From the NCBI GenBank assembly GCA_017541025.1, contig JAFXZY010000051.1, forward strand, positions 1 through 33,974: a stretch of DNA of 33,974 bases, written 5' to 3'. Made by a program: the position numbers and the translations under genes. Positions 7,184-30,612 of this stretch are shown in pieces. The stretch's first letter is position 1; each line of letters starts with the position of its first letter. The notes below the pieces were generated by a model that had not been told where the DNA came from, ran no database searches, and saw only the letters and a list, made by a program, of their open reading frames with translations. Source of the stretch: Bacteroidaceae bacterium. Its GTDB lineage: Bacteria; Bacteroidota; Bacteroidia; Bacteroidales; Bacteroidaceae.

Positions 7184-7301
7184 TGCCCCTCTCCCTAACC
7201 CTTTGCCCATCTTCGCGAATGGTGATTCGCTCACCTTTGTGGGGCCGAAACCACATTCGGTGGTTTCTCTTAAGACCCCAGTCGCCCAAATGGGAGGGAA
7301 C
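7184..7301. repeat. Full-length palindromic element in the GH92 5' leader
   Basis: Runs from GCCCCTCTCCCTAACCC to CGCCCAAATGGGAGGGAAC. Over ~90 bp it matches, in the opposite orientation, the element inside asnB at 11956-12090. Shared blocks are GATTCGCTC, CCTTTGTGGGGCC, CCACATTC and AAGACCCCAGTCGC. Confidence 0.85.
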
Positions 7302-10601: not shown

Positions 10602-12413
10602 TCAATACGCTTGTTCATGTACGCCTTTTACAGCACGGCCAGAGGGGTCGTTCAGGTTCTTGAAGGCTTCGTCCCACTCAAGGGCTTTGGCAGTGGAGCA
10701 AGCTACAGAAGCTTCGCTGGGAACGCTTCTGGCAGCGCTGTCAGAGGGGAAGTGCTCGGCAAAGATACTACGGTAGTAATACTCCTCCTTGTTCTTGGGC
10801 GGATTGATGGGGAAACGTTCGGCGGCATGAGCCATCTGCTCGTCCGAGACGGCCTCGGAGGTTATCTGCTTTAAGGTATCAATCCAACTATAGCCTACGC
10901 CGTCGCTGAACTGCTCCTTCTGACGCCATGCCACTGCTTCGGGCAACATATCGGCAAAGGCCTCGCGGACAATTCTTTTCTCCATCGTTGATCCTGGACA
11001 CATCTTGGCTTCCGGGTTAGTGCGCATGGCAATATCCAGGAACTCCTTGTCAAGGAAAGGAACGCGACCTTCAACGCCCCAGGCACTCAGGCTCTTGTTG
11101 GCACGCAGGCAATCGTAAAGGTATAGTTTGCCCAATTTGCGAACTGTTTCCTCGTGGAAGTCTTTGGCTGATGGGGCTTTATGGAAATAGAGGTAGCCAC
11201 CGAAAATTTCATCAGCACCCTCGCCACTGAGCACCATCTTGATACCCATAGACTTAATGACACGCGCCAACAGATACATGGGTGTAGAAGCACGGACTGT
11301 TGTTACATCGTATGTCTCGATGAAGTAGATAACATCACGTATGGCATCCAAACCCTCCTGAATCGTATAGTTTATCTCGTGGTGTACGGTGCCTATGTGG
11401 TCAGCCACCATTTTAGCCTTAGCCAAATCAGGTGCGCCTTTAAGACCTACGGCAAAGGAGTGAAGACGGGGCCAGTAAGCGCGTGTCTGAGAATTATCCT
11501 CAATGCGGTGCTCGCTGAACTTCTCGGCTATGGCAGAAATCACACTTGAATCCAAACCACCAGAGAGCAAAACGCCGTAAGGTACATCGGACATCAACTG
11601 ACGCTTCACAGCAGCCGTAAGACCATCATGGATAGCCTCAACAGAAGCGGGATTATCCTTCACGGCATCATAACTGAACCAATCACGCTGATAAAAGCGT
11701 TTCATGCCAGGGTCTTTGCTCCAGTAGTAATGACCAGGCAGGAAAGGCTCGTAGCGTTCGCATTGGCCTTCGAGAGCTTTCAGCTCGCTGGCAACATATA
11801 CCGTTCCGTCGCTGTCGTAACCTATATATAAAGGTATAACGCCTATTGGGTCGCGGGCTATCAGGAAGGCATCGCGCTCCTCGTCGTACAGCGCAAAGGC
11901 GAAGATGCCGTTTAACTGTTCCAGCATCGAACAAATCTGCTCGTGAGTAACAAAGTTCCCCTCGCCCACGGGAGCGACTGGGGTCTTCAGAGGAGCCACT
12001 GAATGTGGCTCTGGCCCCACAAAGGGGAGCGAATCCCCATTTGCGACGGTGTTCGGGTTAGGGGTGAGGCCGGCGTTAGGGGTGAGGCTTCTGTAAAGTG
12101 ATAAGACCACTTCGCAGTCGCTGCCTGTCTGAAAATCGTACTGACCGGCAAAGCGACGACGAATCTCCTGATGGTTATAAATCTCGCCGTTCACGGCTAG
12201 CACCTGCTTACGGTCGGGAGAGAAAAGGGGCTGCCTTCCGCTCTCAGGATCCACGATGCTGAGTCGTTCGTGCGCCAGAATGGCCGAACCGCCACAATAA
12301 ATTCCACTCCAGTCAGGTCCGCGGTGGCGGATCTTCTGACTCATCTTCAATGCTTTTTCACGCAGTTCATGCGACTGCTGCCTGATGTTAAATATGGCTA
12401 CAATTCCACACAT
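10602..12413 (-). CDS. asnB: Asparagine synthetase B (glutamine-hydrolysing) with a repeat-derived insertion
   Basis: 603 residues, against about 555 for E. coli AsnB. It makes asparagine from aspartate, glutamine and ATP in the cytoplasm. Cys2 after the initiator Met (MCGIVAIF) is the class II glutaminase nucleophile. NGEIYNH and TGSDCEVVLSLY complete that domain. The ATP pyrophosphatase loop is LLSGGLDSSVISA at ~285. Between LYR (108) and the expected GIFAFALYDEER (169) there are ~49 extra residues (TPNAGLTPNPNTVANG.., then PLKTPVAPVGEGNF) encoded by a palindromic element at 11956-12090. E. coli has an 11-residue surface loop there. The other motifs are intact, so activity is likely. The gene starts immediately after a heptamer array following truncated carB. 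Confidence 0.95.
   Translation of the reverse strand: MCGIVAIFNIRQQSHELREKALKMSQKIRHRGPDWSGIYCGGSAILAHERLSIVDPESGRQPLFSPDRKQVLAVNGEIYNHQEIRRRFAGQYDFQTGSDCEVVLSLYRSLTPNAGLTPNPNTVANGDSLPFVGPEPHSVAPLKTPVAPVGEGNFVTHEQICSMLEQLNGIFAFALYDEERDAFLIARDPIGVIPLYIGYDSDGTVYVASELKALEGQCERYEPFLPGHYYWSKDPGMKRFYQRDWFSYDAVKDNPASVEAIHDGLTAAVKRQLMSDVPYGVLLSGGLDSSVISAIAEKFSEHRIEDNSQTRAYWPRLHSFAVGLKGAPDLAKAKMVADHIGTVHHEINYTIQEGLDAIRDVIYFIETYDVTTVRASTPMYLLARVIKSMGIKMVLSGEGADEIFGGYLYFHKAPSAKDFHEETVRKLGKLYLYDCLRANKSLSAWGVEGRVPFLDKEFLDIAMRTNPEAKMCPGSTMEKRIVREAFADMLPEAVAWRQKEQFSDGVGYSWIDTLKQITSEAVSDEQMAHAAERFPINPPKNKEEYYYRSIFAEHFPSDSAARSVPSEASVACSTAKALEWDEAFKNLNDPSGRAVKGVHEQAY
11956..12090. repeat. Palindromic element inserted in frame in asnB
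   Basis: Extends from TTCCCCTCGCCCACGGGAGC to GGCGTTAGGGGTGAGGCTT and contains a hairpin GAGCCACTGAATGTGGCTC. It is homologous to 7184-7301 in the GH92 leader. It keeps the asnB frame open for 45 codons. Confidence 0.9.
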
Positions 12414-12414
12414 G

Positions 12415-12449
12415 TTGTTAATTGTTAATTGATAATTGACAATTGATAA
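12415..12449. repeat. Five heptamers filling the carB-asnB gap
   Basis: TTGTTAA x2, TTGATAA, TTGACAA, TTGATAA in perfect register. The array begins one base before the asnB ATG and ends directly at the carB stop codon (12450), so it is the whole intergenic region. Confidence 0.95.
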
Positions 12450-15389
<2,940 letters not shown>

Positions 15390-15392
15390 ATC

Positions 15393-17150
15393 TTAAACAA
15401 ATGCCTTTAATGTCTGTTCAACGTATTTTACAAAAGCCTCATTTGCCAATTTGTTGCCGCCTGGGGTGGGGTACTGACCGGTAAAGTACCAGTCGCCCTG
15501 ATGGTCGGGACAGGCAGCATGTAAGCCTTCGATGGTCTGGAAAACAAATTCCACAGGAGCTTTCATTCCCACAGGACGCAGCATCTCTGCCATCTTTAGA
15601 TTGATGTCTTCCACTGTGAAAGGTTTATACAAGGCACAGACGCAGTTGCGCTGCTCTGCCTTTGGCTTCCGAAGTTCGGCGTAGCAGGCTTCGTAGGTGT
15701 CGTTAACCAACTGCCATAGGCCACGCTCTGTCAGCAGGGCGATGGTGGCGCGGAAAGCACAGAACTCCTCCAGACGTGCCATATCTATGCCGTAATAATC
15801 GGGGTAGCGAATCTGGGGTGAGCTGCTGACCATTACAATCTTCTTAGGATTCAGGTGGTCCAGAATCTTGAAGATGCTTTCCTTTAAGGTCGTGCCGCGA
15901 ACGATAGAGTCATCGATTATGACCAGGTTGTCTTCGTAGGGGCGTAGCGAACCGTAAGTAATATCATAAACGTGCGAAGCGAGATCGTTGCGCGAACCTG
16001 CTTCTGTGATGAAGGTACGCAATTTGATATCCTTCCACGCCACCTTTTCGCTACGAACGCTGAGTCCCTGACTGCGCAGGCCTTCCATCATACCGTAGAA
16101 GGCTACCTCGGCTGTGTTGGGGATGAAGGAGAATACCGTATGGTCGGTATCACCGTCAATGGCCTTTAGGATAGGCGCAGTGAGTTGCTGTCCCAGTTGT
16201 TTGCGCTCGTGGTAGATGTCGCGGTCGGAACCACGACTGAAATAAATCCTTTCGAACGAGCAGCGGGCTTGCTGTTTGGCCTCCAAGATAGTCTCCAAAT
16301 AAGATATGCCGTCCTTATGGATAATCAGCGCCTTTCCTGAGGGGAGTTCCTGAACATCCTCCACTTGCAGGTCGAAGGTGGTTTGCAACACAGCACGCTC
16401 GCTGGCGACAGCAATCACCTCATCGTCTTTGTAGAAGAATGCCGGACGGATGCCCCAGGGATCACGCATGGCAAACATTTCGCCCGAGCCGGTCATGCCG
16501 CACATCACATAGCCGCCGTCGTAGTCGGCCATGGTGGTACGCAGCACATTGGCCATCTGCACATTGTCATCAATGTAGCGAGTGATGTCGGTGTTCTCCA
16601 AACCTTTCTCTTTCGCCTCCGTGTAGCAGCGTTCCACCTCACGGTCCAGTCGGTGTCCCATCAGCTCCAGCGTAATGTATGAGTCGCTATAGATACGTGG
16701 CGACTGGCCCTGCTGCACTATTTTATCAAATATCTCATCGATGTTGGTCATGTTGAAGTTGCCGCACAGACACAGGTTCTTGGCCCTCCAGTTGTTGCGA
16801 CGCAGGAAGGGGTGTACGTACTGAAGTCCGCTCTTGCCTGTTGTGGAGTAGCGCAGGTGACCCATGTAGAGCTGGGCCCCGGTCCATTCGGGTGTCACGT
16901 GGTCGAATGTCTCCGTGATGGCATCCTTGCCCAGGGCTTTCTCGCGGAACATGTACTCTGTTCCCACGGTAGCGTTCATATTCACGCAGGCAATACCCGC
17001 ACCCTCCTGACCACGGTTGTGCTGCTTCTCCATCATCAGATAGAGCTTGTTCAGACCATACGACTGTGTGCCGTACTTCTGGTTATAATAGCTTTGCGGT
17101 TTCAGTAGGCGAACCAGTGCCACACCGCACTCATGTTTCAGTTGTTCCAT
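15393..17150 (-). CDS. purF: Amidophosphoribosyltransferase (glutamine PRPP amidotransferase)
   Basis: 585 residues. It transfers the glutamine amide to PRPP, the first step of purine synthesis. Cys8 after MEQLKHE is the class II nucleophile behind a short propeptide. EKQHNRGQEGAGIA, MGHLRYSTTG and CLCGNFNMTN belong to the glutaminase domain, and DNLVIIDDSIVRGTTLKESI is the PRPP-binding loop. It is longer than the ~505-residue E. coli enzyme and ends in an extra ~80-residue segment (FTVEDINLKMAEMLRP.. GDWYFTGQYPTPGG), so it is probably the longer Bacteroidetes variant. I see no repeat insertions in it, unlike its three glutamine-enzyme neighbours. The upstream gap is filled with repeats and has no clear promoter. 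Confidence 0.9.
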   Translation of the reverse strand: MEQLKHECGVALVRLLKPQSYYNQKYGTQSYGLNKLYLMMEKQHNRGQEGAGIACVNMNATVGTEYMFREKALGKDAITETFDHVTPEWTGAQLYMGHLRYSTTGKSGLQYVHPFLRRNNWRAKNLCLCGNFNMTNIDEIFDKIVQQGQSPRIYSDSYITLELMGHRLDREVERCYTEAKEKGLENTDITRYIDDNVQMANVLRTTMADYDGGYVMCGMTGSGEMFAMRDPWGIRPAFFYKDDEVIAVASERAVLQTTFDLQVEDVQELPSGKALIIHKDGISYLETILEAKQQARCSFERIYFSRGSDRDIYHERKQLGQQLTAPILKAIDGDTDHTVFSFIPNTAEVAFYGMMEGLRSQGLSVRSEKVAWKDIKLRTFITEAGSRNDLASHVYDITYGSLRPYEDNLVIIDDSIVRGTTLKESIFKILDHLNPKKIVMVSSSPQIRYPDYYGIDMARLEEFCAFRATIALLTERGLWQLVNDTYEACYAELRKPKAEQRNCVCALYKPFTVEDINLKMAEMLRPVGMKAPVEFVFQTIEGLHAACPDHQGDWYFTGQYPTPGGNKLANEAFVKYVEQTLKAFV

Positions 17151-17383
17151 ATCTCAATTCTCAACGTTTATCGGTTAGCGTTTATCGGTTAGCGGTTAGG
17201 AGCCCAGCCATGGCTGGAACGTCAACGATAACGTCAACGACAACCTTTTAACCTATTAGCGGTTAGTGGACCCTTTAAACTCTTAAACTCTTAAACTCTT
17301 AAACTCTTAAACTTATTAAACTGCCTCTAAACTCTATACTCTCAACTCTAAACTGTTATCGTTTAGCGGTTATCGTATAATTT
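17151..17383. repeat. Intergenic region built of stacked short tandem arrays
   Basis: In order: TTTATCGGTTAGCG units, a perfect 14-bp palindrome CCAGCCATGGCTGG, AACGTCAACGATAACG hexamers, GCGGTTAGTGG, (TCTTAAA)n, TCTCAACTCTAAAC units and GTTATCGTTTAGCGG. Almost the whole purF-pyrG gap is low-complexity. I see no promoter in it. Confidence 0.85.
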
Positions 17384-19169
<1,786 letters not shown>

Positions 19170-19219
19170 ACAATTATGGCAAAAAGTTGTAGAAAGTTCT
19201 GTAATTGGAAAAAAATAAC

Positions 19220-19259
19220 AAAAAAAGAGTCTCCCGTTGCACCTTTTCGGTAAGCAACG
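19220..19259 (-). terminator. Likely terminator of the EEP-family gene
   Basis: Minus strand CGTTGC...GCAACG stem around TTACCGAAAAGGT, followed after 8 bases by a T7 run. It lies just past the stop codon at 19282. Confidence 0.5.
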
Positions 19260-19281
19260 TGTCGGTTTCTCGAGTAAAGGA

Positions 19282-20247
19282 CTAATATTTGAACGTCATT
19301 AATATCGGTAAATGATCAGAGGGATGCCAAAAGTTAGAAATCTTCTGCGGGTTCCGAACGGGCGAAGTATAATCGTCCCTCAGGATAGCAGCATGAGTTA
19401 CTTTTTTGCGTAACGCAGGAGTAACATATATAAAGTCTATACGCGATTTTCCACCAGTTGAACTTATAAACTCCTGTGGATAAAGGTCTTTAATAAGGTC
19501 TATGTAAGGCGTTTCTGTGCGGATATAGTCGTGTACCAGAAACTTGGTGGAATTGTCCGGGTGGTGATAGGTGTCGTTGTCAACTCGCGATACAGAGTTG
19601 AAATCTCCCATCATAGCCCACAGTTCCTTCTTTGCATTAGGGTGTGTCAGCACTGTGGCTTTGCACAGATATTCCATTTCCGTTCTGCGGAAGGTGTCCC
19701 CTTCACCCTTTTCCTGACTTTCTTTCCGCTTGTCAGTTGGCACTCGGAATCCGAATCCCATGGGCCACGTATGTAAGGTTACCAGATTGAACGTCTTTTT
19801 CTTGTCTATTGTAAGTTTGTACCACGAGGCACCGTGGCAGACAACGGTATCGACATTCCCCGTTATCAGTTTCTCTGCCTCAAAGGGAAAGCGCGATGTA
19901 ATGAGCTGTGGGTAATTGTCGGGGTGAGCACTCAGATATACATAACGGTGTCCGTAACGTTCAGCCAATCTGCGCCAGCGAGCCAGGCATTCCTCTTCTG
20001 TCTCCTTCTCGCTTTTGTCTGAGTTGACAACATATAGCTTCTGTGCCTCGCACCATACGCAAATGTCAGGTTGCTGTTTAGAGACCCAATCGGTAAAGCG
20101 CTGGTAATCATCGGTCTGCCCATCCCACATACCATTCTGAATGTTCCAATAAAGCAGGTTCAGGGTTCCGTTTCCTTCCTTCTTGGCCATGCACGTTATG
20201 ACCCCCATAAGAACGAAAAATGCAACAAAAAAGACTCTTCTTTTCAT
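19282..20247 (-). CDS. Exported endonuclease/exonuclease/phosphatase-fold protein
   Basis: 321 residues. Signal peptide MKRRVFFVAFFVLMGVITCM. The EEP fold signatures occur in order: LNLLYWNIQNG, DICVWCEAQ (catalytic Glu), WAMMGDFNSVSR (GDFN), RIDFIYVTP and NFWHPSDHLPILM (SDH). These place it with DNase I, sphingomyelinase or inositol-phosphatase-like metal-dependent phosphodiesterases; substrate is not determinable here. The export signal points to nutrient phosphate release or extracellular DNA or lipid turnover. A long insertion is absent and the length is normal. It is flanked by a likely terminator and by a 116-bp gap to the efflux operon with no strong promoter. Confidence 0.88.
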   Translation of the reverse strand: MKRRVFFVAFFVLMGVITCMAKKEGNGTLNLLYWNIQNGMWDGQTDDYQRFTDWVSKQQPDICVWCEAQKLYVVNSDKSEKETEEECLARWRRLAERYGHRYVYLSAHPDNYPQLITSRFPFEAEKLITGNVDTVVCHGASWYKLTIDKKKTFNLVTLHTWPMGFGFRVPTDKRKESQEKGEGDTFRRTEMEYLCKATVLTHPNAKKELWAMMGDFNSVSRVDNDTYHHPDNSTKFLVHDYIRTETPYIDLIKDLYPQEFISSTGGKSRIDFIYVTPALRKKVTHAAILRDDYTSPVRNPQKISNFWHPSDHLPILMTFKY

Positions 20248-20363
20248 GAGCGATATATTTTTTCGCCGTAAAATTACAACTTTTATTTGATATTCTTGTT
20301 CTCGGTAGCCCCAAAAATCAAATAGCTACCTCCTACATGGGGACGCAGACGCAACATATCCCT

Positions 20364-21629: not shown

Positions 21630-21636
21630 TCTAATA

Positions 21637-21790
21637 ATGGTTATGGGTTATGGGTTATAGGTTATAGACATTTAGAGTTTATTAAATTGAGAATTGAGAA
21701 TTGAAAGTTGAAAGTTGAAAATTGAGAATTAGTTTACGGTTTACCTCTTCCATCTTCCATCAGACTTCAGACTTCCTACTTCAGCCTTCT
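21637..21790. repeat. Mixed heptamer arrays between HlyD and TolC genes
   Basis: GGTTATG units, TTGAGAA/TTGAAAG units, then CTTCCATCTTCCATCAGACT-like repeats run up to the TolC stop codon. The repeat continues into the coding end and supplies its last residues (KNEE). Confidence 0.8.
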
Positions 21791-23344
21791 TCACTCTTCA
21801 TTCTTCAGCGTCAGGCTCCTCAGTCCATAGTATAAACTCCAATAGGTTTGCAGGGAACCGATGAAGGCCCGTTGTGCCTTGTCCTTCTCGCTGATGCTGG
21901 TATTGAACTCCAGTAGTGTCGTGCGCCCTTGCACATACAGCCAGCGTGCTACTTCGTAGCGGCGAAGGGCTGTCTCTCTTGTCTTGTAGGCAATGCGTAC
22001 GCGATAGCCTTGCAAGTTGTATTGACGTACCATTTTCAGTACGTTCAGCCGAAAGTCCTCCATAGCCTGATCGCTTTGCGTCTGTGTCAGTTCCAGCCTC
22101 GACTTTGCCACGCGCACTTGTCCCTTTCCCCGTCCCCAGTCCAAGAGCGGTAGCGACAATGTCAGGCTGCCATACTGCTGGTTCAATGGTTTCGAATAAG
22201 CTTCTCCCAGTGTTGTTCCCGTCTGAGAAAGACCGAACTTCACGTACAGGTCAGCTTTCAGGCCGCGATTGGCCTTGGCAGCAGCGAGCGAGCTCTGGCT
22301 CTCTATGATGTTAAGACGGAACTGATCGGGATCGGGGTTGTTCTCTAAAGCCAGTGCCAAGGCTTCCTCTGCATCATACATCGTGTCGTGAATCATCGTG
22401 TCGGGAACCACCTTCAGCGTCACAGGATCCTTTATTCCCAAGTACGACTTCAGCGTCAGCATCGACTCCTCCACTTCTGCCTCAGCATTCAGTTGGTTGG
22501 TTTCCTCGGTCAGTCGGTTCACCTCCAGTTGCAGCATCTCATTTTCTGTGATACTTCCTCGTTCATAGCGGCTGCGTGCATATCGGTGCAGGGTATCGCT
22601 TACCGCATAGTTCTGTCGGGCGATGTCCAGGTCGGTTTGAGCCGAAGCCAGCATGAAGAAGTAGCTGCTGGCTCGTGAGGCCACCAGTTCCATTGTCTCG
22701 TTGTACTGTTTCCTGGCCATACGTACCCGCAATGGTTCTGTGCGTTTTGCCCACTTTAGGCTGTTGTGCCCCAAAAGGCTTTGCTGATAGCCGATAGAGA
22801 AGGGCACTGTGCTGTAGCCGTGTGTGTGTTGCTCAAACTCGTCCTGACGGTAGAGGCTACTGCTCACGAAGAGCGTGCCGCCCGTCAATGCTATATTCTG
22901 CTTGATGCTTAGCGAAAGGTCGGTGCTCAACTGGTTCTGCCGCACAAAAACATTGGTACCATCGGGTTGCGTGATGCTACTGACCTGACGGTTCAGCGAA
23001 GGCGATGACGAGAGCGATACCGACGGCAAGTAGTTCGCCTGATAGTAGCGGTAGTTCCATTCTGCCGCCTCCAACTGATGCTTTGCCGCCAGTGCGTCTG
23101 CCGACTGACTTTGTGCCAGAGCTATACATCCGTCCAAGGACAAGCAAAGCGTGTCTTGGGCGAATGAGTGAAGAGTGAAGGCTGCGATTAAGTGAGTGAA
23201 AAGCCAAACTCGTTTGAGCTTTTCCGAACGAAAGCAGGCTCGAACGAAGTTCAAGAGTGAAGAGTGAAGAATAAAGAGTGAAAAATAAGGATTACTCATA
23301 TCTTCAGATTTATTATTTGTCATTCTTAGTTTATTATTCTTCAT
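21791..23344 (-). CDS. TolC-like outer-membrane efflux protein
   Basis: 517 residues. The mature part starts near QDTLCLSLDGCIALAQSQSA and shows the two-fold TolC repeat (LEAAEWNYRYYQANYLPSVS, SLPLLDWGRGKGQVRVAKSR) with long helices. It forms the outer-membrane channel of the tripartite pump. The N-terminus is unusual. A signal peptide (KRVWLFTHLIAAFTLHSFAQ) is preceded by ~42 residues (MKNNKLRMTNNKSED.. SLFILHSSLLNFVRACF) largely translated from a CTCTTCACTCTT repeat. No Met lies closer to the signal peptide, so either this long leader is used or an alternative start codon is. Confidence 0.88.
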   Translation of the reverse strand: MKNNKLRMTNNKSEDMSNPYFSLFILHSSLLNFVRACFRSEKLKRVWLFTHLIAAFTLHSFAQDTLCLSLDGCIALAQSQSADALAAKHQLEAAEWNYRYYQANYLPSVSLSSSPSLNRQVSSITQPDGTNVFVRQNQLSTDLSLSIKQNIALTGGTLFVSSSLYRQDEFEQHTHGYSTVPFSIGYQQSLLGHNSLKWAKRTEPLRVRMARKQYNETMELVASRASSYFFMLASAQTDLDIARQNYAVSDTLHRYARSRYERGSITENEMLQLEVNRLTEETNQLNAEAEVEESMLTLKSYLGIKDPVTLKVVPDTMIHDTMYDAEEALALALENNPDPDQFRLNIIESQSSLAAAKANRGLKADLYVKFGLSQTGTTLGEAYSKPLNQQYGSLTLSLPLLDWGRGKGQVRVAKSRLELTQTQSDQAMEDFRLNVLKMVRQYNLQGYRVRIAYKTRETALRRYEVARWLYVQGRTTLLEFNTSISEKDKAQRAFIGSLQTYWSLYYGLRSLTLKNEE

Positions 23345-23387
23345 AGCGACATCAAATTCTTCATTCTTCTCTATTCCCTATTCCCTC

Positions 23388-23417
23388 CTCTCCCCCTAAA
23401 GGGGGGCGGTGAGGCTT
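23388..23417. repeat. Short palindromic element copy
   Basis: CTCTCCCCCTAAAGGGGGGC then GGTGAGGCTT, ending one base before the ATPase stop codon. Confidence 0.75.
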
Positions 23418-23418
23418 T

Positions 23419-24093
23419 TTACATCTCCACTTCCTGTACAATCTGTCCGTCGGATAGGTTGATGATACGCTGGGCGTATGAGGCATCACGCTGCGAGTGA
23501 GTCACCATTACGATGGTGGCGCCTTCGTCGTGCAACTGGCTCAGCAGATCCATTACCTCGCGACCGTTCTTGGAGTCGAGGTTACCTGTGGGCTCGTCGG
23601 CAAGGATGAGCTTGGGACGCGAAACTACGGCACGTGCGATTGCCACACGCTGCTGCTGACCGCCGCTGAGTTGACGGGGAAAATGCTTGGCGCGATGGCT
23701 GATGTCCATACGGCGCATTGCTTCCTCTACCCGCTTACGTCGCTCAGCCTTCGGCAGTCGCATGTAGAGCAGCGGCAGTTCGATGTTCTCCTCGACGCTG
23801 AGGTCATCGATGAGGTTGAAACTTTGGAAGACAAAGCCGATGAGTCCTTTGCGCAGCTTGTCGCGTTCGGGTTCGCTGAGTGGTGTCACATCCTGTCCGC
23901 CGAGCAGATATTGTCCGCCTGTAGGGGCATCCAGGAGTCCGAGGATGTTCAGCAATGTTGATTTACCGCAGCCGCTGGGGCCCATGATGGCGACGAACTC
24001 GCCTTCGTTGATTTCAAGGTTCACGCCGTTCAGGGCGATAGTGCGCACCTCTTCTGTAGTAAATGCGCGCTGGAGATTTGTTGTCTTAATCAT
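23419..24093 (-). CDS. ABC transporter ATPase (LolD/MacB type)
   Basis: 224 residues from MIKTTNLQRAFTTEEV at 24093. An in-frame ATG at 24108 lies within an AAATGGTA repeat and is less likely. Walker A GPSGCGKST, Q-loop FVFQSFNLIDDL, signature LSGGQQQRVAIARA, Walker B LILADEPTGNLDS and H-loop VTHS are all intact. It powers the two FtsX-type permeases encoded just upstream. This subfamily drives mechanotransmission, in which the ATPase works periplasmic domains rather than passing substrate through the membrane. Confidence 0.93.
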   Translation of the reverse strand: MIKTTNLQRAFTTEEVRTIALNGVNLEINEGEFVAIMGPSGCGKSTLLNILGLLDAPTGGQYLLGGQDVTPLSEPERDKLRKGLIGFVFQSFNLIDDLSVEENIELPLLYMRLPKAERRKRVEEAMRRMDISHRAKHFPRQLSGGQQQRVAIARAVVSRPKLILADEPTGNLDSKNGREVMDLLSQLHDEGATIVMVTHSQRDASYAQRIINLSDGQIVQEVEM

Positions 24094-24098
24094 CTTTT

Positions 24099-24250
24099 CA
24101 TTTACCATTTAATTATTTACCATTTAACCATTTATATCGCTAACCGCTAACCTATAACCGCTAACCACTAACCGATTAAAGTTCCCGTTTCCGTTAATCT
24201 CCTCCCCTTTGGGGGAGGTCGGGAGAGGGGCCGGAGGTCGGAAGAGGGGC
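24099..24250. repeat. Heptamer arrays and a palindromic element between permease and ATPase genes
   Basis: TTTACCA/TTTAACC units, then (CTAACCG)n to 24177, then a palindromic element CTCCTCCCCTTTGGGGGAGG plus TCGGGAGAGGGGCC at 24199-24250, which ends exactly at the stop codon of the permease. Confidence 0.85.
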
Positions 24251-26671
24251 CTAATTCTCTTTCAACACTTCATATGGTTTTATTCTTGTTGCCTTCCATA
24301 CTTGCTGCCAGAGAGTTAGGGCACAGAGGATGAGGATGATGGCAATGCTGAGGATCGGAATCCACCAGGCGAAACTGGTGCGGATGGTGTAGCTGGCCAT
24401 GATGCGATGGATGACGAGCAGGCTGACGGGCAGCGAAGCGACGACAGCAATGCCGAAGACGATAAGATAGCGGCGTGAGAGCAGTAGGGCAATGTCCAGG
24501 AACGTGGCGCCATTGACCTTACGGAGGGCAATCTCGCGGTAACGCCTGCGTACATCGAACATCATCAACCCCAGTACGCCGAGGCAGGTGACGGCAATCG
24601 CCAAAAGTGAGAACGTCACGAAGATGCGGGCGATGCGCTGATCATCTTTATAGAGTGCCTTGCGCTGGTCTTCTATCCAGTGATACTTCAGATCGGTGGT
24701 GCCGAAGAGTTCCTTTTCCAATGCTTTCAGTTCGCGGATGATGTCGTCCTCGTGCCCCTCGACGACCTCGATGAGGTAGTTGTTCCCCCGCATCTGGTGG
24801 GCGTCGAAGATGTCAAACTCCCTTGTCCAGCCTTCGAACATCAGCAGTATCGGCGGCACAGGCTCAGACTGCCGACCGGGGTTGAAATCGCGGACGACGC
24901 CTATGATGCGGTAGGGCGGGTTGCCGCTACAGTCCTTGTCGCCACTATACCAAAAGCGCTCATCAAATTGCACGAGGTCGGTATTGCGGTCTTTGATGCC
25001 CAGTGCACGGATGGCAGATTCATTGGCAACACAGGTATAGTCTTCCATCGAGAGGCTGTCACCGGGCAGTACACCCTCTACCAGTTGTAGGCCGTACATC
25101 TGCGCCTCTAATCCCTCGATATACATTATGTCTACGTTGCTGCCATCGGCGAGGTTCATGGTCATGTTACCGTTGATGAATCCATTATCAATTGTAATGC
25201 CCTTGATATAGGGGCACGCCTGCAGGCGCTGCTTCACCACCTCGGTTTGCTTGGCGAGATTTGCTATCATAGCTTCCCACTCTTCTTCTGAAAAACTGCC
25301 GCGGTTGCTGGGGGGATAGATGCAAGCACTGAGCAGTCCTTTGGTGCGGAAGCCTGGGTCGGCGGTCATCATCACATGCAACTGGCGCATAAAATAAATG
25401 CTGACATTCAACAAAGCGAGGGAGATGAAGAATTGGAAGAACATAAAAGCCTCACCCCTAACCCCTCTCCCGAGAGAGAGGGGAACTTTAGCCGCGGAAC
25501 TCCCCTCGCCCACGGGAGAGGGGCCGGGGGTGAGGCTTGTTATTAGTGGCAGCCCGAATAGGATTATCAACGTCAGTCCCACATCGAACTTCCATTGTGG
25601 CAAGACCTCTATATTATAATAGGTTGCGAGCAGCGGCTCCATGAGTTCCACTACCGTCCAGACACCGACCATCGTGAAGACAGCGAGCAGGAATGTCTCG
25701 GCATAAAGCTGGCAGAAGATGTTCCAGCGCGAGGCGCCGAAGATGCGGCGCACCTCCAATTCGTGGCGGCGATGGCTGCGCATGACAGCGAATAGGTTCA
25801 CAAAATTGAACAAGCCGACGAACAGCAAAAGCACAGCCACAAAGAGGAGCATCCACAGATGGCTGGAGGAGGCAACGGGGACTAAACAGCTAAGTTCTGT
25901 CCAATAGCTGCCACAGCATTTTTGCAGCATTTGCGTATAAGGCTGTAGTCCGTAGTGGACGGGGCGGTCGGAAAATTCAGTCAACCGCTGTTCGGGCTGC
26001 CGTTCGTTGTATGCCTGCATATCGGTTCCTTCGTGCAAGCGGATGAGACCGATGCCGCGGCTGTTCTGCCCATATCTGAACTCGTCGTTGAAGTTGGCGA
26101 TGTCGAAGCGGATGGTAGACTTTGTGGCAGGTTGGCAGAAGACGCCCATCACGGTATTCACCTCGTCGTCTTCCACCGTGATGGTCTTTCCCACGGCGCT
26201 TTCGCCAGGGAACAGCCGTTCGGCAAGTTCTTCGCTCAGGATGCACTGACCTTTTGCCTGTAGTACCAAGGTCCCCTCCAACGCTTTCAGCGGATAAACT
26301 TGTGTAAACGTGGAATCCACGCTGATGGCCTTGGGGTAAAATACCTCGCCTTGCTCGGGCTTGAGGGGGAACATCGAGCGCAGTTGCACATTCGTCCAGC
26401 ACTCCACGTCGCTTTGGTTCAGCACGGGCGAGACGAAGTGCTCTTGGTGGTTGGGATCGTAGGTCTTTATCGGAAACCATTCGTTGGAGTTCTGATATTG
26501 TACGCAGCATACGTAGGTGCGGTCCAGGTCCGGCATCCAATGGTCGATGGTCCACTCCTGATAGAGGTAGCGGGCGATGATGATAGTTCCGCTGAGGGAG
26601 ATGATAAGGCCCAGCAGCGAGAGGGCTGTGTAGCCCTTCATGCGGCTGATGATTCGAAATGCTTGTTTCAT
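24251..26671 (-). CDS. FtsX/MacB-type ABC permease (second copy)
   Basis: 806 residues. The first TM helix (GYTALSLLGLIISLSGTIII) is followed by a large periplasmic domain (~45-280), then TM helices near 283-305 and 325-375, another near 410-430, a second periplasmic domain (~440-680), and a closing FtsX helix set (VTFSLLAIAVTCLGVLGLMM, DVRRRYREIALRKVNGATFL). It is a tandem paralogue of 26728-29088 with near-identical DNA at both ends but divergent periplasmic domains. A palindromic element adds ~30 residues at 377-408 (SLTPGPSPVGEGSSAAKVPL), absent in the paralogue. Its role is probably export or resistance to an envelope-active compound; the substrate is unknown. Confidence 0.9.
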   Translation of the reverse strand: MKQAFRIISRMKGYTALSLLGLIISLSGTIIIARYLYQEWTIDHWMPDLDRTYVCCVQYQNSNEWFPIKTYDPNHQEHFVSPVLNQSDVECWTNVQLRSMFPLKPEQGEVFYPKAISVDSTFTQVYPLKALEGTLVLQAKGQCILSEELAERLFPGESAVGKTITVEDDEVNTVMGVFCQPATKSTIRFDIANFNDEFRYGQNSRGIGLIRLHEGTDMQAYNERQPEQRLTEFSDRPVHYGLQPYTQMLQKCCGSYWTELSCLVPVASSSHLWMLLFVAVLLLFVGLFNFVNLFAVMRSHRRHELEVRRIFGASRWNIFCQLYAETFLLAVFTMVGVWTVVELMEPLLATYYNIEVLPQWKFDVGLTLIILFGLPLITSLTPGPSPVGEGSSAAKVPLSLGRGVRGEAFMFFQFFISLALLNVSIYFMRQLHVMMTADPGFRTKGLLSACIYPPSNRGSFSEEEWEAMIANLAKQTEVVKQRLQACPYIKGITIDNGFINGNMTMNLADGSNVDIMYIEGLEAQMYGLQLVEGVLPGDSLSMEDYTCVANESAIRALGIKDRNTDLVQFDERFWYSGDKDCSGNPPYRIIGVVRDFNPGRQSEPVPPILLMFEGWTREFDIFDAHQMRGNNYLIEVVEGHEDDIIRELKALEKELFGTTDLKYHWIEDQRKALYKDDQRIARIFVTFSLLAIAVTCLGVLGLMMFDVRRRYREIALRKVNGATFLDIALLLSRRYLIVFGIAVVASLPVSLLVIHRIMASYTIRTSFAWWIPILSIAIILILCALTLWQQVWKATRIKPYEVLKEN
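25448..25542. repeat. Palindromic element in frame in the permease
   Basis: AGCCTCACCCCTAACCCCTC ... GAGAGGGGCCGGGGGTGAGG with inverted ends CCTCACCCC / GGGGTGAGG and an inner TTTAGCCGCGGAAC. The paralogous permease lacks it. Confidence 0.92.
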
Positions 26672-26693
26672 GTTGTTTTAGTTGACAAGTTAA

Positions 26694-26727
26694 TCCCCTC
26701 CCCTTTGGGGGAGGTCGGGAGAGGGGC
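26694..26727. repeat. Palindromic element abutting the stop codon of the first permease
   Basis: CCCCTCCCCTTTGGGGGAGG then TCGGGAGAGGGGCC, ending exactly at the TAG stop. The same junction occurs at 24250. Confidence 0.85.
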
Positions 26728-29088
26728 CTAATTCTCTTTTAATACTTCATACGGTTTGATGCGTGTTGCCTTCCATACTTGTTGCCAGAGCGTCAGGGCG
26801 CAAAGCAGCAGGACGATAGCGATGCTTACGAGCGGAATCCACCAGGCGATGGTGGCGTGGATGGTATAGTAGCGCGTTATCAACTGGTGCAGGCCGATGA
26901 GTGAGACGGGGATGCTGACAGCGGCAGCTACAGCCAATATAATAAGGTAGCGGCGTGAGAGCAGCAAGGCGATGTCTAAGAACGTGGCACCGTTGACCTT
27001 ACGAAGCGCAATCTCGCGGTAGCGACGTCGCACATCGAACATCATCAGGCCCAGCACGCCCAGACAAGTGACGGCAATCGCCAGGAACGAGAAGGTGAAG
27101 AAGATACGGGCTGTTCGACGGTCCTCCTCGTAGAGGCTGGCTACATCATCTTTGAGCCAATGATAAGGCAATTCCTCCACATGGAAGATTTCGCGCGACG
27201 TCTTCTGTATGTATTCAATAGCTTCCTTCTCATGCCCGGGCATAACTTCGACCGCCACCTCAGAACCATTCAGTCTGTCAGGTTCTTCCTTACGATAAGC
27301 AAAGAACATGCCGGGTTGAGGTTCGGATAGTTTGCCAGGATGGTAATCGCGTATTACACCCACTATCTCGTAGGGCACGAGCGGTTGTTCATCGGGCATC
27401 CTGCCAGTCGTGTAGTCAAAAATCCACCACAGACGCCTTGCAGGCAGAACCGTCTCTTTCTCAATGTCCTTGATGCCCAGTTGTCGGATAGCTGTTTCGT
27501 TCAGGAGGCAGCGATATTGTTCTCTGGTGTCCAGTGTGTCGTTGAAAGCCCGACCCTGAACGACTTCCAGACCGTACATCTCCATCTGCTGCGGGCTTAT
27601 GCTTTGGTATTCAAGCGAGACATTATTGACCGACAACTCGTTACCCGTTTTATAAATGTTTCCCGAGGAGCAGAAGCTTTTAATATGCGGGCATGCCGTC
27701 AGGCGGTCGTTCAGTAGCTTGCTGTCGTTCTTCATTGTTTCGAACCAATCCATAGTGGGCCCGCCGCTTCCCGTCCATGTTCGTGAAGGATAGGGTGTAC
27801 AGTTCAGGATATTCTCGGTACGGTAGCCAGGGTCGCTGCCCATCATGAAGTGCAGTTGCCGCATCAGGTAGAGGCTTACGGTGATGAGGGTGATGGATAT
27901 GAAGTATTGGAGGAAAAGGAAAGACCTTGCCCCAGCCTTGCCCAACCTTCCTACGATTGCTATAAGAGGCAATATAAATATTATTGAGAGTGACAGCGTC
28001 GTGTCGAAGAGGGGCATGCTCATCTGCTCAATGCTGAACCAGTCCTTCATGTGCGGCGTAATCAGCTCGACGACCATCCACACACCAAGCATAGCAAGAG
28101 CGCTGATGAGCAGGTTCTCCATGTAGAGCATCGAGAATATGTCGAGGCGCGAGGCACCGAAGATGCGGCGCACCTCCAGCTCGTGGCGGCGGTGGCTGCG
28201 CATCACGGCAAAGAGGTTCAGGAAGTTGAAGATGCCGACGAGGAAGAGCAGGACGGCGACGGCGAAGAGCATCCACAGGTATTTGGGCGAGCTGACACTC
28301 CTAACGGTAACGTCCCTTTCGCCCCATAGCTGTGAAAGCAGTCCTTCGTATGGAGCCAGCTGAAAACGCAGTGTACGCCCCTCCATTTCGAATACGTTGG
28401 GAGTCTGTACGGGTTGGCGTTTGTTGTAGGTCTTCACGCTGGCCCCTGGGTGAAGTCTGACCATATAGAAGACACTGCCCTGATTATTGTAGGCATATTC
28501 TGCTTCGTACTCTACATAGTCGAAGTTCAGCGAAAGCTTCGAGGCGGGTTTCCGAAAGACGCCGATAACAGTGCGCAGTTGTCCGTTGTCCGTCGTCAGG
28601 GTCTGCCCAACAGCCTCCCCCTCGGGAAAGAGCCGTGCAGCCAGTTCTTCGCTGATGATGGCATCCCCTTCGTGGCGCAATACCAACGTGCCGGCCACAG
28701 CCTTCAGGGGGAAGAACCTGTGGAACATGCTGTCAGCCTTCAAGGCCAGCGGCTTCAGCATCTCTTCCCCATCCAGTTTCAATTGCAGCGTCGTGTAGGT
28801 GCTCGCATACGAGAAATACTCTATCTCGTTCTGTCCGTCCAAAGGCGACTGGAGTTCTGCACGCCCGAGAAAGCTTTTATAGAACATTGCCGGGTAAGGA
28901 TTATCACCAGAACTTTCTTCCATCAATACATACGTCCTGTCGAGGTCCGGCATCCAATGGTCGATGGTCCACTCCTGATAGAGGTAGCGGCTGATGATGA
29001 TAGTTCCGCTGAGGGAGATGATAAGGCCCAGCAGCGAGAGGGCTGTATAGCCCTTCATGCGGGAGATAAGTCGGAATGCTTGTTTCAT
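26728..29088 (-). CDS. FtsX/MacB-type ABC permease (first gene of the efflux operon)
   Basis: 786 residues with the same architecture as its paralogue: N-terminal TM, periplasmic domain, central TM helices (LWMLFAVAVLLFLVGIFNFL), second periplasmic domain and C-terminal FtsX helices (LAIAVTCLGVLGLMMFDVRR). At the junction where the paralogue has an element it reads LPLIAIVGRLGKAGARSFLF, the uninterrupted form. The ATG at 29088 lies 35 bp downstream of the sigma-54 -12/-24 promoter. With the ATPase, TolC-like and HlyD-like proteins it forms a tripartite export or resistance system. Confidence 0.9.
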   Translation of the reverse strand: MKQAFRLISRMKGYTALSLLGLIISLSGTIIISRYLYQEWTIDHWMPDLDRTYVLMEESSGDNPYPAMFYKSFLGRAELQSPLDGQNEIEYFSYASTYTTLQLKLDGEEMLKPLALKADSMFHRFFPLKAVAGTLVLRHEGDAIISEELAARLFPEGEAVGQTLTTDNGQLRTVIGVFRKPASKLSLNFDYVEYEAEYAYNNQGSVFYMVRLHPGASVKTYNKRQPVQTPNVFEMEGRTLRFQLAPYEGLLSQLWGERDVTVRSVSSPKYLWMLFAVAVLLFLVGIFNFLNLFAVMRSHRRHELEVRRIFGASRLDIFSMLYMENLLISALAMLGVWMVVELITPHMKDWFSIEQMSMPLFDTTLSLSIIFILPLIAIVGRLGKAGARSFLFLQYFISITLITVSLYLMRQLHFMMGSDPGYRTENILNCTPYPSRTWTGSGGPTMDWFETMKNDSKLLNDRLTACPHIKSFCSSGNIYKTGNELSVNNVSLEYQSISPQQMEMYGLEVVQGRAFNDTLDTREQYRCLLNETAIRQLGIKDIEKETVLPARRLWWIFDYTTGRMPDEQPLVPYEIVGVIRDYHPGKLSEPQPGMFFAYRKEEPDRLNGSEVAVEVMPGHEKEAIEYIQKTSREIFHVEELPYHWLKDDVASLYEEDRRTARIFFTFSFLAIAVTCLGVLGLMMFDVRRRYREIALRKVNGATFLDIALLLSRRYLIILAVAAAVSIPVSLIGLHQLITRYYTIHATIAWWIPLVSIAIVLLLCALTLWQQVWKATRIKPYEVLKEN

Positions 29089-29122
29089 GTTGTGAATTTA
29101 TGAGTTTACTTTACCTTATATA

Positions 29123-29140
29123 TAGCAAGAACCGTGCCAA
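29123..29140 (-). promoter_or_regulatory. Sigma-54 (-24/-12) promoter of the efflux operon
   Basis: Minus strand TTGGCACGGTTCTTGCTA is a perfect match to TGGCACG-N4-TTGC, with GG and GC exactly 10 bp apart. The ATG of the first permease follows at 29088. An NtrC-type activator is encoded immediately upstream in the locus. Confidence 0.93.
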
Positions 29141-29224
29141 AATGGTAAATGACTGATTCTTAGTGAATTAAAGAAATCTGGTCTTGTGGGTATGTGTGCG
29201 TCATCGCTCATCATCGTGCGGAAG

Positions 29225-29255
29225 TGCACAGGAAAAGGTATCAATACGTTGTGCA
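29225..29255. promoter_or_regulatory. Inverted repeat TGCACA...TGTGCA between enhancer and promoter
   Basis: TGCACA (29225-29230) and TGTGCA (29250-29255) flank a 19-bp A/T-leaning segment. It could bind a DNA-bending or second regulatory protein. Evidence is only the symmetry and the location. Confidence 0.3.
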
Positions 29256-29297
29256 TTTTTCTTTTTAAGTCGTGAAAAAACATCTTTTTCCCTTGTC

Positions 29298-29393
29298 TAA
29301 AACTATTTTCAAGGCGTGAAAATATATTTTCAAGACTTGGTTATTTATTTTCAAGGCTTGGTTATAAATTTTCAAAGCTTGAAAATAGTTTTA
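29298..29393. promoter_or_regulatory. Enhancer array: four 17-bp dyad sites at exact 21-bp period
   Basis: Sites start at 29306, 29327, 29348 and 29369: TTTTCAAGGCGTGAAAA, TTTTCAAGACTTGGTTA, TTTTCAAGGCTTGGTTA, TTTTCAAAGCTTGAAAA. The two outer sites are full dyads; the inner two keep one perfect half. Each is separated by 4 bp, giving two helical turns per period, so all lie on one DNA face. The array is framed by TAAAACTA / TAGTTTTA, making its ends a 16-bp inverted repeat. It lies ~165-255 bp upstream of the sigma-54 promoter, as expected for activator binding sites. Confidence 0.88.
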
Positions 29394-29424
29394 TATGCAG
29401 GACAAAATATTTTTATATTATTGA

Positions 29425-30612
29425 TCATATCTTTATTTCTATCGTAGTACCCTTTTTCTCCTTGCTTTCGATATGGATGGTGCCGCCATGTTTGAGGATA
29501 ATCTGCCGACAGAGGCTAAGACCGATGCCAGTACCAGTGGTCTTGGTGGTGTAGAAGGGGATGAAAGCGTGCTCCAGTACGTCGGGCGACATACCAGCGC
29601 CGTTGTCGCGGACGAAAAGCCTCACCCCCGACCCCTCTCCGAGGAGAGGGGAGAACTGCGTTTTGACCTCTACCTCGGTGGCGCCGCTTTCGAATGCGTT
29701 TTTGATAAGGTTAATGAGGACTTGCTCTATTTGAGCGCGGTCGGCCAACAGCCTCACCTCTAACCCTTCTCCGGGGAGAGGGGAAAACGTTAATTGCGGG
29801 GTATTTTTCTCCCCACTCTCGACGGTGTTCGGGCTGGGGGTGAGGCTGAACAGCGCTTTTAGATGTTCAAATAATTCGGAGACGGGGAAGGTCGTTTTCT
29901 CGGGTGTCTTGATGCGCGTCAGTTGTCGGTAGCTCTCCACAAAGTCGAGTAGGGAGTGGCAACGACGGTTGATGACGGCAGCCCCCTCCTGTCCTCCCCC
30001 TTGGGGGAGGGAACCTGCCAATGTCTCGCTGATGGAAATGATGGGTGTCAGGGAGTTCATGATTTCGTGGGTAAGCACGCGGATGAGTTGTTGCCAGGCC
30101 TCCATCTCCTGCCGCTGCATCAGCATAGATACATCCTTCAGGGCTACCACAAGTTTGCGTTGTCCGTCGATTCGCAACAGAACCGTAGAGAGCGCACAGC
30201 CGTCCACCACCTCTTTATGTTCGGCAATGGCCGAGAGGATACGGGGAGGCAGAAGCCCCCTCCCAACCTCCCCCGAGGGGGAGGAGTATTGGGTCGCCAC
30301 ATGGTTCATCCAATCGATGCGTCCGTCTGTGGAGCAGACAAAGAGAGCCGTATCCACATTCTCTGTCAACTGTCGCAAGTACTGCAACTGTCGCTCTGCC
30401 TCTGCAAGCTTCACATGCAACTTCTGATTCTCCTTTTCCGTTTCATGGTAAGCGTATCGTAGGCGGCTGATGCGGCCGTAAAGCGAAACACACAGCCATA
30501 GCATTGCTACAATCAAGGCTATGGACGCCCAAAGCAGATGGGATTTGACGCTGAGGACCATGGCTGCCATCAAGACCACAAGCCCCACTATATATAATAT
30601 GTATGTTTTCAT
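29425..30612 (-). CDS. Sensor histidine kinase (NtrB-like) with four repeat-derived insertions
   Basis: 395 residues. Two TM helices (ILYIVGLVVLMAAMVLSV, LLWASIALIVAMLWLCVSLY) form a hairpin with almost no periplasmic loop. A coiled coil and a PAS-like domain (~85-160) follow, then the H-box LTHEIMNSLTPIISISE (His phosphoacceptor), N-box NLIKNAFESG, and G boxes VRDNGAGM and TGTGIGLSLC. The tiny sensor loop suggests intramembrane or cytoplasmic sensing. Palindromic elements add SSPSGEVGRG (~109-121), SLPQGGGQEGA (~200-211), SLTPSPNTVESGEK.. (~255-287) and SPLLGEGSGVRL (~319-331); catalytic motifs are untouched. It overlaps the regulator gene by 4 bp (ATGA). Confidence 0.92.
   Translation of the reverse strand: MKTYILYIVGLVVLMAAMVLSVKSHLLWASIALIVAMLWLCVSLYGRISRLRYAYHETEKENQKLHVKLAEAERQLQYLRQLTENVDTALFVCSTDGRIDWMNHVATQYSSPSGEVGRGLLPPRILSAIAEHKEVVDGCALSTVLLRIDGQRKLVVALKDVSMLMQRQEMEAWQQLIRVLTHEIMNSLTPIISISETLAGSLPQGGGQEGAAVINRRCHSLLDFVESYRQLTRIKTPEKTTFPVSELFEHLKALFSLTPSPNTVESGEKNTPQLTFSPLPGEGLEVRLLADRAQIEQVLINLIKNAFESGATEVEVKTQFSPLLGEGSGVRLFVRDNGAGMSPDVLEHAFIPFYTTKTTGTGIGLSLCRQIILKHGGTIHIESKEKKGTTIEIKI
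29619..29655. repeat. Palindromic element 1 in the kinase gene
   Basis: GCCTCACCCCCGACCCCTCT then CCGAGGAGAGGGGAGAAC, in frame between the N-box and the G box. Confidence 0.85.
29751..29847. repeat. Palindromic element 2 in the kinase gene
   Basis: GCCTCACCTCTAACCCTTCT ... GACGGTGTTCGGGCTGGGGG then TGAGGC. It shares the ACGGTGTTCGGG module with the asnB element. It is in frame between the H-box and N-box domains. Confidence 0.85.
29980..30014. repeat. Palindromic element 3 in the kinase gene
   Basis: AGCCCCCTCCTGTCCTCCCC then CTTGGGGGAGGG, in frame just after the H-box helix. Confidence 0.75.
30252..30287. repeat. Palindromic element 4 in the kinase gene
   Basis: AAGCCCCCTCCCAACCTCCC then CCGAGGGGGAGGAG, in frame in the PAS-like domain. 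Confidence 0.75.

Follow-up and report, generated by a model that had tools for sequence, protein, structure and literature searches.

How do palindromic repeats come to lie in frame within the genes of core enzymes, and what keeps them there? The question is raised by contig JAFXZY010000051.1 of assembly GCA_017541025.1 (Bacteroidaceae bacterium), whose whole analysed stretch of 33,974 nucleotides is called the window below. Two families of hairpin repeats, A and B, occur in this window, both in frame in core genes. The source genome (G000), a draft of 3,277,679 bases in 95 contigs and 84% complete, belongs to a gut bacterium that is probably a Prevotella of the rumen. The elements are, we consider with moderate confidence, non-autonomous hairpins resembling repetitive extragenic palindromes (REPs) and their hairpin-forming doublets (REPINs), spread by copying, whose in-frame copies are kept by selection in tolerant loops.

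Repeat families and their reading frames

The family A unit has 37 or 39 nt and follows the consensus AG-CCTCACCCC(T/C)(A/G)A-CCCCTCTCC..GAGGGG-AAC, while family B reads CCCTCTCCCCGCTCCCCC.. or GCCCCCTCCC... The original prediction had placed in-frame palindromes in asnB, in carA and at its junction with carB, twice in pyrG, in a permease and four times in a histidine kinase, together with relatives near 2253 and 3648 in two further proteins; all of them could be located with exact coordinates (Table 1), the relative near 3648 being of family A and the other weak. The arms which all these copies were thought to share are indeed common to the family A sites, whereas family B, which lacks the CCTCACCCCTAACCCCTC arm, makes up both inserts in pyrG, the linker of carA/carB and two of the four copies in the kinase. 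That 18-base arm, allowing up to 2 mismatches, was found at 62 places in G000 and its reversed pattern at none, so that its frequency exceeds chance. Most family A copies in G000 are single units. When 68 arm matches were lined up (including a few plain CCTAACC runs), the 5' edge proved to be sharp, with AG at 74% and 88% and only 43% one base further out. In a scan of the phylum with a shorter pattern, matches appeared in 37 of 296 genomes and 29 of 140 genera.

Four of the six frames of the 39-nt unit are open (SLTPNPSPVGEGN, ASPLTPLPWARG, VPLAHGRGVRGEA and FPSPTGEGLGVR) and one frame per strand carries stops, as had been claimed. Positions were classified against open reading frames (ORFs) of at least 120 amino acids, an interior position having at least 30 residues on each side. 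In this way, 61 of the 62 places in G000 were assigned (the omitted one begins at base 5 of contig C13): 27 are interior to ORFs, 9 near the C-terminus and 2 near the N-terminus, giving 38 within ORFs, and the remaining 23, which include some plain heptamer runs, are in none. In a second genome, G018, ORF interiors hold 22 of 32 arms, with 8 near ORF ends (30 of 32 in ORFs) and 2 in none; in G016, 9 of 16 are interior and 7 in none. The 38 readings within ORFs of G000 comprise 24 of the SLTPNPS type, 6 ASPLTPL, 4 RGVRGEA, 3 EGLGVR and 1 other, an uneven usage of the four open frames (chi-square 31.9, p 6e-7) in which paralogous hosts make the counts non-independent. A Pfam domain was detected at 1e-10 in 27 of 30 host ORFs, chosen with preference for long ones from 64 listed outside the window; GltB, PyrG, an Era-like GTPase, a carbamoyltransferase and a UvrD-like helicase are among them. 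Judging from these frames, the elements would be translated as Pro/Gly/Ser-rich loops.

Insertion relative to orthologues

Alignment to element-free orthologues, which the original prediction had proposed for finding exact boundaries, agrees with it: the comparison shows lineage-specific, in-frame insertion in loops of core enzymes. Among 98 AsnB rows, four loops show at least 9 residues in gap-rich columns in 3, 27, 12 and 11 rows, not all of these being repeats; loop 109 is short in 71 of the 98, most orthologues thus lacking the extra loop instead of sharing it across the phylum as non-repetitive sequence. The AsnB insert of the window falls at a short turn of the E. coli enzyme (1ct9), and both PyrG loops coincide with gaps in the alignment to a solved CTP synthase. 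PyrG loop 2 is filled by family B in the window, L084 and L085, by an AT-rich heptamer array in L083, the closest relative (92.6% DNA identity), and by neither in L086; in CarA, a heptamer array stands at residue 171 in the window and in L083, and family A in L085 and L086. One loop therefore accepts different repeats across genomes. More generally, the same loop of PyrG, CarA or AsnB holds in near relatives the same repeat, a different one or none, and half-units of about 18 nt are duplicated in place. An AlphaFold2 model of PyrG was poor (mean predicted local distance difference test, pLDDT, 62.2) and gave no firm support, since residues 132–151 and 399–508 as a whole fell below 50, and so did core segments such as 44–75. 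In L118, AsnB loop 109 reaches 84 residues, consisting of a repeat unit of 14 residues and, after it, an array of heptamers.

Inverted pairs, folding and length

In G018, family A copies are mostly inverted pairs, 19 of them distinct; G016 has 2 and the window 1, in the permease. The pairs of G018 and G016 measure from 117 to 182 nt, and those of G018 contain 40-bp hairpins, two of which reached DNA fold z scores of -14.1 and -11.0 (for the permease pair, see Table 1). Alignment of 14 pairs gave 36 consensus base pairs, mostly invariant. Over all the loci scanned, the length was divisible by three in 13 of 16 inverted pairs within ORFs as against 6 of 15 others (p 0.029), the exceptions within ORFs being L217, of 130 nt in a probable N-terminal extension, and L219 from another genus, with 103 and 133 nt.

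The analysis was also extended to 111 inserts of at least 14 residues in five enzymes (188 rows; L154, which has stops, left out). These fold better than same-length windows of their own genes, with a median z of -1.18 against 0.06, and 31 of 111 inserts reached z -2 or lower compared with 3 of 111 such windows; the associated p of 2e-12 is too small because near relatives are present in the set. Ten of 19 AT-rich inserts also attained z -2 or lower, and those built of heptamers are often inverted pairs as well, such as AsnB loop 233 in L086 and L149 and the GltB of L270.

Bracketing arms in GltB

In the GltB of several genomes, a native conserved stretch is flanked by oppositely oriented arms. 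Counts refer to 31 of 33 rows, after removal of L264, which hardly differs from L061, and of the partial second copy in G099, L272, with the degenerate L299, and L297 in pair 2, scored as carriers. Taking an excess of at least 6 residues, both arms of pair 1 occur in 6 rows, one in 2 and none in 23 (p 6e-5), and both arms of pair 2 in 7, one in 2 and none in 22 (p 1e-5); with at least 9 residues, pair 2 drops to 5 rows with both and 4 with one (p 7e-4). Arms are more complementary to their own partner than to the partners of other genomes (permutation fractions 0.008 and 0.0006), and own-partner scores are 241 and 256 in inverted versus 130 and 137 in the same orientation. By eye, both sides belong to family B in L267 and to family A in L284, and in L061 family A lies inside what remains of a family B copy. 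A tree of 30 rows, built with the insert columns removed and weak at several nodes, requires at least 5 and at least 6 changes for the 6 and 7 carriers, respectively.

In gltB, the arms enclose no spacer of their own but stand one in each of two loops, on either side of a native, conserved coding segment; they are alike within a genome, differ in subfamily from genome to genome and appear, from the tree, to have been gained or lost several times. A tentative explanation, which we place below an even chance, is some linked process by which selfish hairpins would remodel both loops of this essential enzyme together, either paired insertion or template switching, with conversion of arms, that would copy an inverted arm into the second loop nearby. 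Apart from GltB, a leuS-like ORF from another genus (L222, G326) contains two family A-like inverted arms at positions 1027 and 1488, some 460 nt apart and both in frame. Between the genomes of L061 (G000) and L264 (G075), identity is 99% for GltB and 93% for PyrG, which suggests a recent exchange of the gltB region between these two genomes.

Closed chromosomes

In the closed chromosome of the isolate Prevotella communis E15-14, a search allowing up to 2 mismatches gave 10 matches to the arm, 8 of them within ORFs of the length used above, although one of the 8 (L248) is probably no element. Among the hosts are a GH43 enzyme, an RsmF-like methyltransferase and a topoisomerase; five were Pfam-scanned or are paralogues, and L242 has no family. 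The presence of in-frame copies in this closed chromosome excludes assembly error as their cause. No arm match was found in Prevotella sp. ne3005, and Leyella stercorea has 7, of which 6 are outside ORFs.

Search for a mobilizing enzyme

As the original prediction stated, the window encodes no mobilizing protein that could be recognized: a Pfam scan of 20 of its ORFs gave no transposase family. In the genus, Y1_Tnp (PF01797) was detected at 1e-3 in 40 of 101 genomes. When the E limit for PF01797 was relaxed to 1, G000 gave two weak matches, which belong to a divergent HUH family (model A2) with complete members of about 335–502 amino acids; one of these, L249, scored 39.8 bits (E 3.7e-10) against NCBIfam REP_Tyr_transpos, below the cut-off of 80. 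A profile built from ten members gave three matches in G000; of 61 genomes, 32 had a match. The family A arm was absent beside 8 Y1_Tnp loci as well as near L251, L258, L261 and L262, which are canonical genes resembling REP-associated tyrosine transposases (RAYTs) in four other genomes. A cognate RAYT flanked by family A was not found, the third G000 match (C47) being left out and 16% of the genome missing.

The divergent RAYT-like family (L249, L250 in G000:C44, L252, L253, L254, L257, L259 and L260) is characterized by a long C-terminal part and by up to seven matches per genome, and several members carry in-frame tandem repeats after the HUH motif (GEAQGTMLRREDI, AVPAVP, TDAQGVVAA). The canonical gene L258 (G111) stands between AATCGGGGTCTGACCCCGATT-type palindromes on both flanks, and CCTGTCCC-type motifs were seen by eye close to L251 and L261.

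Origin and maintenance of the elements

Spread by copying of REP/REPIN-like hairpins, followed by selection for in-frame copies, is the account considered probable here. Hairpin-forming non-autonomous repeats would copy themselves to many genome sites, moved in trans, perhaps, by an HUH (RAYT-like) enzyme. Gene-borne copies would survive where the frame is kept and the loop is tolerant, and would then be translated, while a second inverted arm near the first could be made or matched by template switching or arm conversion.

Several results weigh against this account. Transposition was not observed, and no target-site duplication was seen by eye in pair flanks or aligned sites, recent empty sites being lacking. 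The search for a genome-encoded REP-type transposase, as the original prediction had proposed, was not rewarded: G000, at its 84% completeness, gave no PF01797 at 1e-3 and no NF047646 at 1e-4, and its divergent HUH genes are unlinked to the repeats. The family A arm was absent from the 15 loci scanned for the divergent RAYT-like proteins. The number of these divergent genes correlates weakly with that of arms (rho 0.34, p 0.038, falling to 0.24, p 0.15, once genome size is allowed for); such genes occur in 6 of 12 arm-free genomes, and G020 and G035, with 22 and 15 arms, have none. Regarding the unit itself, the 3' edge of family A is blurred (AAC at 44–56%), partly because there are two hairpin lengths. 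Folding was near that of shuffles for a monomer (z -1.3) and for two family B pairs cut 2–3 bases short (-0.5 and -0.7), and covariation in the pair stem was small, with two-sided change in 4 of 36 pairs and a term of 0.29. Taken by themselves, G018 and G016 gave no significant length effect (11 of 12 versus 6 of 10, L200 being counted twice among the latter; p 0.135), and neither did the single units of G000 (15 of 26 versus 7 of 16, p 0.53). Strict automatic sorting recognized only 12 of 53 AsnB loop inserts as palindromic or heptameric, which is uninformative, and some of the host ORFs may not be genes.

Inverted repeats and arrays of heptamers could also arise where they stand, in tolerant loops, through local slippage and template switching during replication, with no mobile element at all. 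The inverted pairs among the AT-rich heptamer inserts of the same loops (10 of 19 at z -2 or lower), the half-units repeated in place and the matching of bracketing arms within one genome all fit such errors; nevertheless, the recurrence of a single consensus in numerous unrelated genes, also among genes within one genome, is not what local errors produce, and we regard this origin as unlikely. Still less probable is that the loops are adaptive, hosts recruiting repeats so as to alter the surface of enzymes or, by means of hairpins, to regulate the mRNA: the use of the same loops in different species and the retention of long hairpins inside ORFs would agree with it, whereas the same loop is filled by unrelated sequences, most relatives do without (the short AsnB loop 109 is a case in point) and host functions are diverse.

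Were the elements cut from the mRNA or skipped by the ribosome, their strong hairpins within ORFs would recall the bypassed palindromic elements of a yeast mitochondrion, as mentioned in PMC6649704. The frames, however, are open, and the in-ORF pairs of G018 and G016 measure 117, 120, 129, 132 or 156 nt, with the 130 nt of L217 as the sole exception; splicing, inteins and ribosome bypass were ranked low on account of these frames and lengths, and we take such removal to be very improbable. An assembly or binning artefact might be feared in a draft as fragmented and incomplete as G000, and is given practically no weight, since inserts are common to separately assembled genomes and similar ones stand in the closed isolate chromosome.

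If copying and selection did produce these inserts, an abundant gut genus would be building loops of its essential enzymes from selfish DNA, and quickly enough for species to differ, as the comparisons suggest. The inserts also map naturally which loops of AsnB, CarA, PyrG, PurF and GltB tolerate insertion, and P. communis E15-14 is an isolate in which the translation, cost and movement of the elements are measurable. Furthermore, the bracketing pairs raise a mechanistic question, namely the origin of a matched inverted arm in a second, separate loop.

Features of the window

Table 1. Repeat elements and host genes in the window
Feature	Host and reading	Position	Strand	Basis and relatives
Family A unit with a second palindrome within	asnB, in frame, 46 codons	11952-12089 (138 nt)	-	Coordinates read; relatives have no insert or one monomer of 13 codons
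Family A unit with half-unit duplications	carA, in frame, 25 codons	15117-15191 (75 nt)	-	Absent in L083, L086, L103
Family B inverted pair	Linker between CarA and CarB parts of one ORF	14130-14223	-	Relatives with heptamers or other repeats at the linker
Family B-like inverted pair	pyrG loop 1, residues ~130-153	18639-18710	-	Sequence and orthologue comparison
Family B inverted pair	pyrG loop 2, residues ~469-491	17622-17692	-	Heptamer array in closest relative L083
Family A inverted pair, REPIN-like	FtsX-type permease, 30 codons, opposite-strand reading	25448-25537 (90 nt)	+	DNA fold z -7.2
Family A unit	Histidine kinase	29618-29657	+	Sequence
Family A inverted pair with inner sequence	Histidine kinase	29750-29847	+	Sequence
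Family B unit	Histidine kinase	29978-30014	+	Sequence
Family B unit	Histidine kinase	30252-30286	+	Sequence
Family A unit, 39 nt	BNR-repeat protein (ORF 2554-3792), before C-terminal YDLSGRKV..KGLYI segment	3643-3681	+	Sequence and Pfam
Short, weak, degenerate relative	BspA-type leucine-rich repeat protein, corresponding place	2249-2278	+	Sequence and Pfam
Copy related to family B	Intergenic	24194-24232	+	Sequence
Copy related to family B	Intergenic	26690-26728	+	Sequence
Host gene	asnB	10602-12413	-	Pfam; alignment to 1ct9
Host ORF	carA fused to first part of carB	12450-15389	-	Pfam
Host gene	pyrG	17384-19096	-	Pfam; alignment to solved CTP synthase

Rfam gave no matches in the window. The ORF at 12450–15389 joins CarA to only the first part of CarB, with the repeat element as linker, and this fusion is spanned by 14 aligned relatives whose linkers differ from it in sequence. 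An 87-nt stretch at 7208–7294, near the start of a GH92 gene, is 82% complementary to 11965–12051 in the asnB insert, so that the insert contains a third repeat. AT-rich heptamer arrays are also in frame, reading for instance VNDNVNDND or NSQLSTLNSQL, in UxaA (32343–33911), in CarA at residues ~165–212 and at the C-termini of 658–2406 and 2554–3792; those of CarA occupy loops which hold GC-rich hairpins in relatives. In L045 and L071, as at 3643–3681, a family A unit lies just N-terminal to a YDLxGRKV...KGxYIxxGKK segment ending large proteins, and in some of these proteins the segment itself contains heptamers.

Relation to known systems

REPs within genes, in frame, were described in 2013 for the GTAG and CGTC superfamilies (PMC3733652), where dimers or groups encode 20–30 residues and intragenic CGTC repeats of R. 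conorii are equated with the Rickettsia palindromic elements RPE-4 and RPE-6; in that paper the words Prevotella and Flavobacter do not occur and Bacteroid occurs once. The present elements resemble them in being short palindromes, single or as inverted dimers, in frame and sometimes twice per gene. They differ from those mostly intergenic repeats in the tag beside the palindrome, which in the family A consensus is AGCCTCACCCC and neither GTAG nor CGTC, in having half or more of their arms in ORFs in three genomes and in sharing loops with AT-rich repeats. As in REPINs (PMC3116915), two inverted units and a spacer form one hairpin, both in the G018 pairs and in the window permease. What is shared with REPs and REPINs is thus a multi-copy palindromic unit with a consensus, together with inverted doublets forming a hairpin; unlike in the RAYT systems of PMC3116915, no REP-flanked RAYT was found for family A and the copies are not restricted to extragenic space. 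Instead of being mainly extragenic, 27 of 61, 22 of 32 and 9 of 16 arms lie in ORF interiors. Subclasses of TnpAREP in Bacteroidetes are treated in PMC6006769, and in a 2025 REP survey (PMC12306157) the words 'intragenic' and 'Prevotella' had no hits.

The parallel with Rickettsia palindromic elements, drawn in the original prediction, is a fair one as regards behaviour, REP/REPIN being nevertheless the nearest architecture. Those elements, described before the in-frame REPs (PMC2229807), are likewise in-frame palindromes in genes of conserved proteins and also occur between genes, and one host enzyme was tested and found active; they have 105–146 bp and terminal inverted repeats, whereas the units here have 37–39 nt and the pairs start from 90 nt, many being of 117–156. 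The coding palindromes of nematomorph mitochondria (PMC6649704) also show matched inverted arms in coding genes and gain or loss between species, and their authors propose that arms are converted through template switching; in contrast, the arms described here belong to genome-wide repeat families and bracket native sequence. Enterobacterial RU/ERIC elements (2007, PMC2759123) are similarly small mobile repeats with open frames inside genes, with other sequences, sizes (103–168 bp) and hosts. Searches of titles and the beginnings of abstracts, on which this statement depends, found no paper on in-frame elements of this kind in Prevotella. In-frame REPs and Rickettsia palindromic elements are already published; what is new here is the large share of copies within genes, the several repeat classes accepted by one loop and the pairs of arms which bracket native coding sequence.

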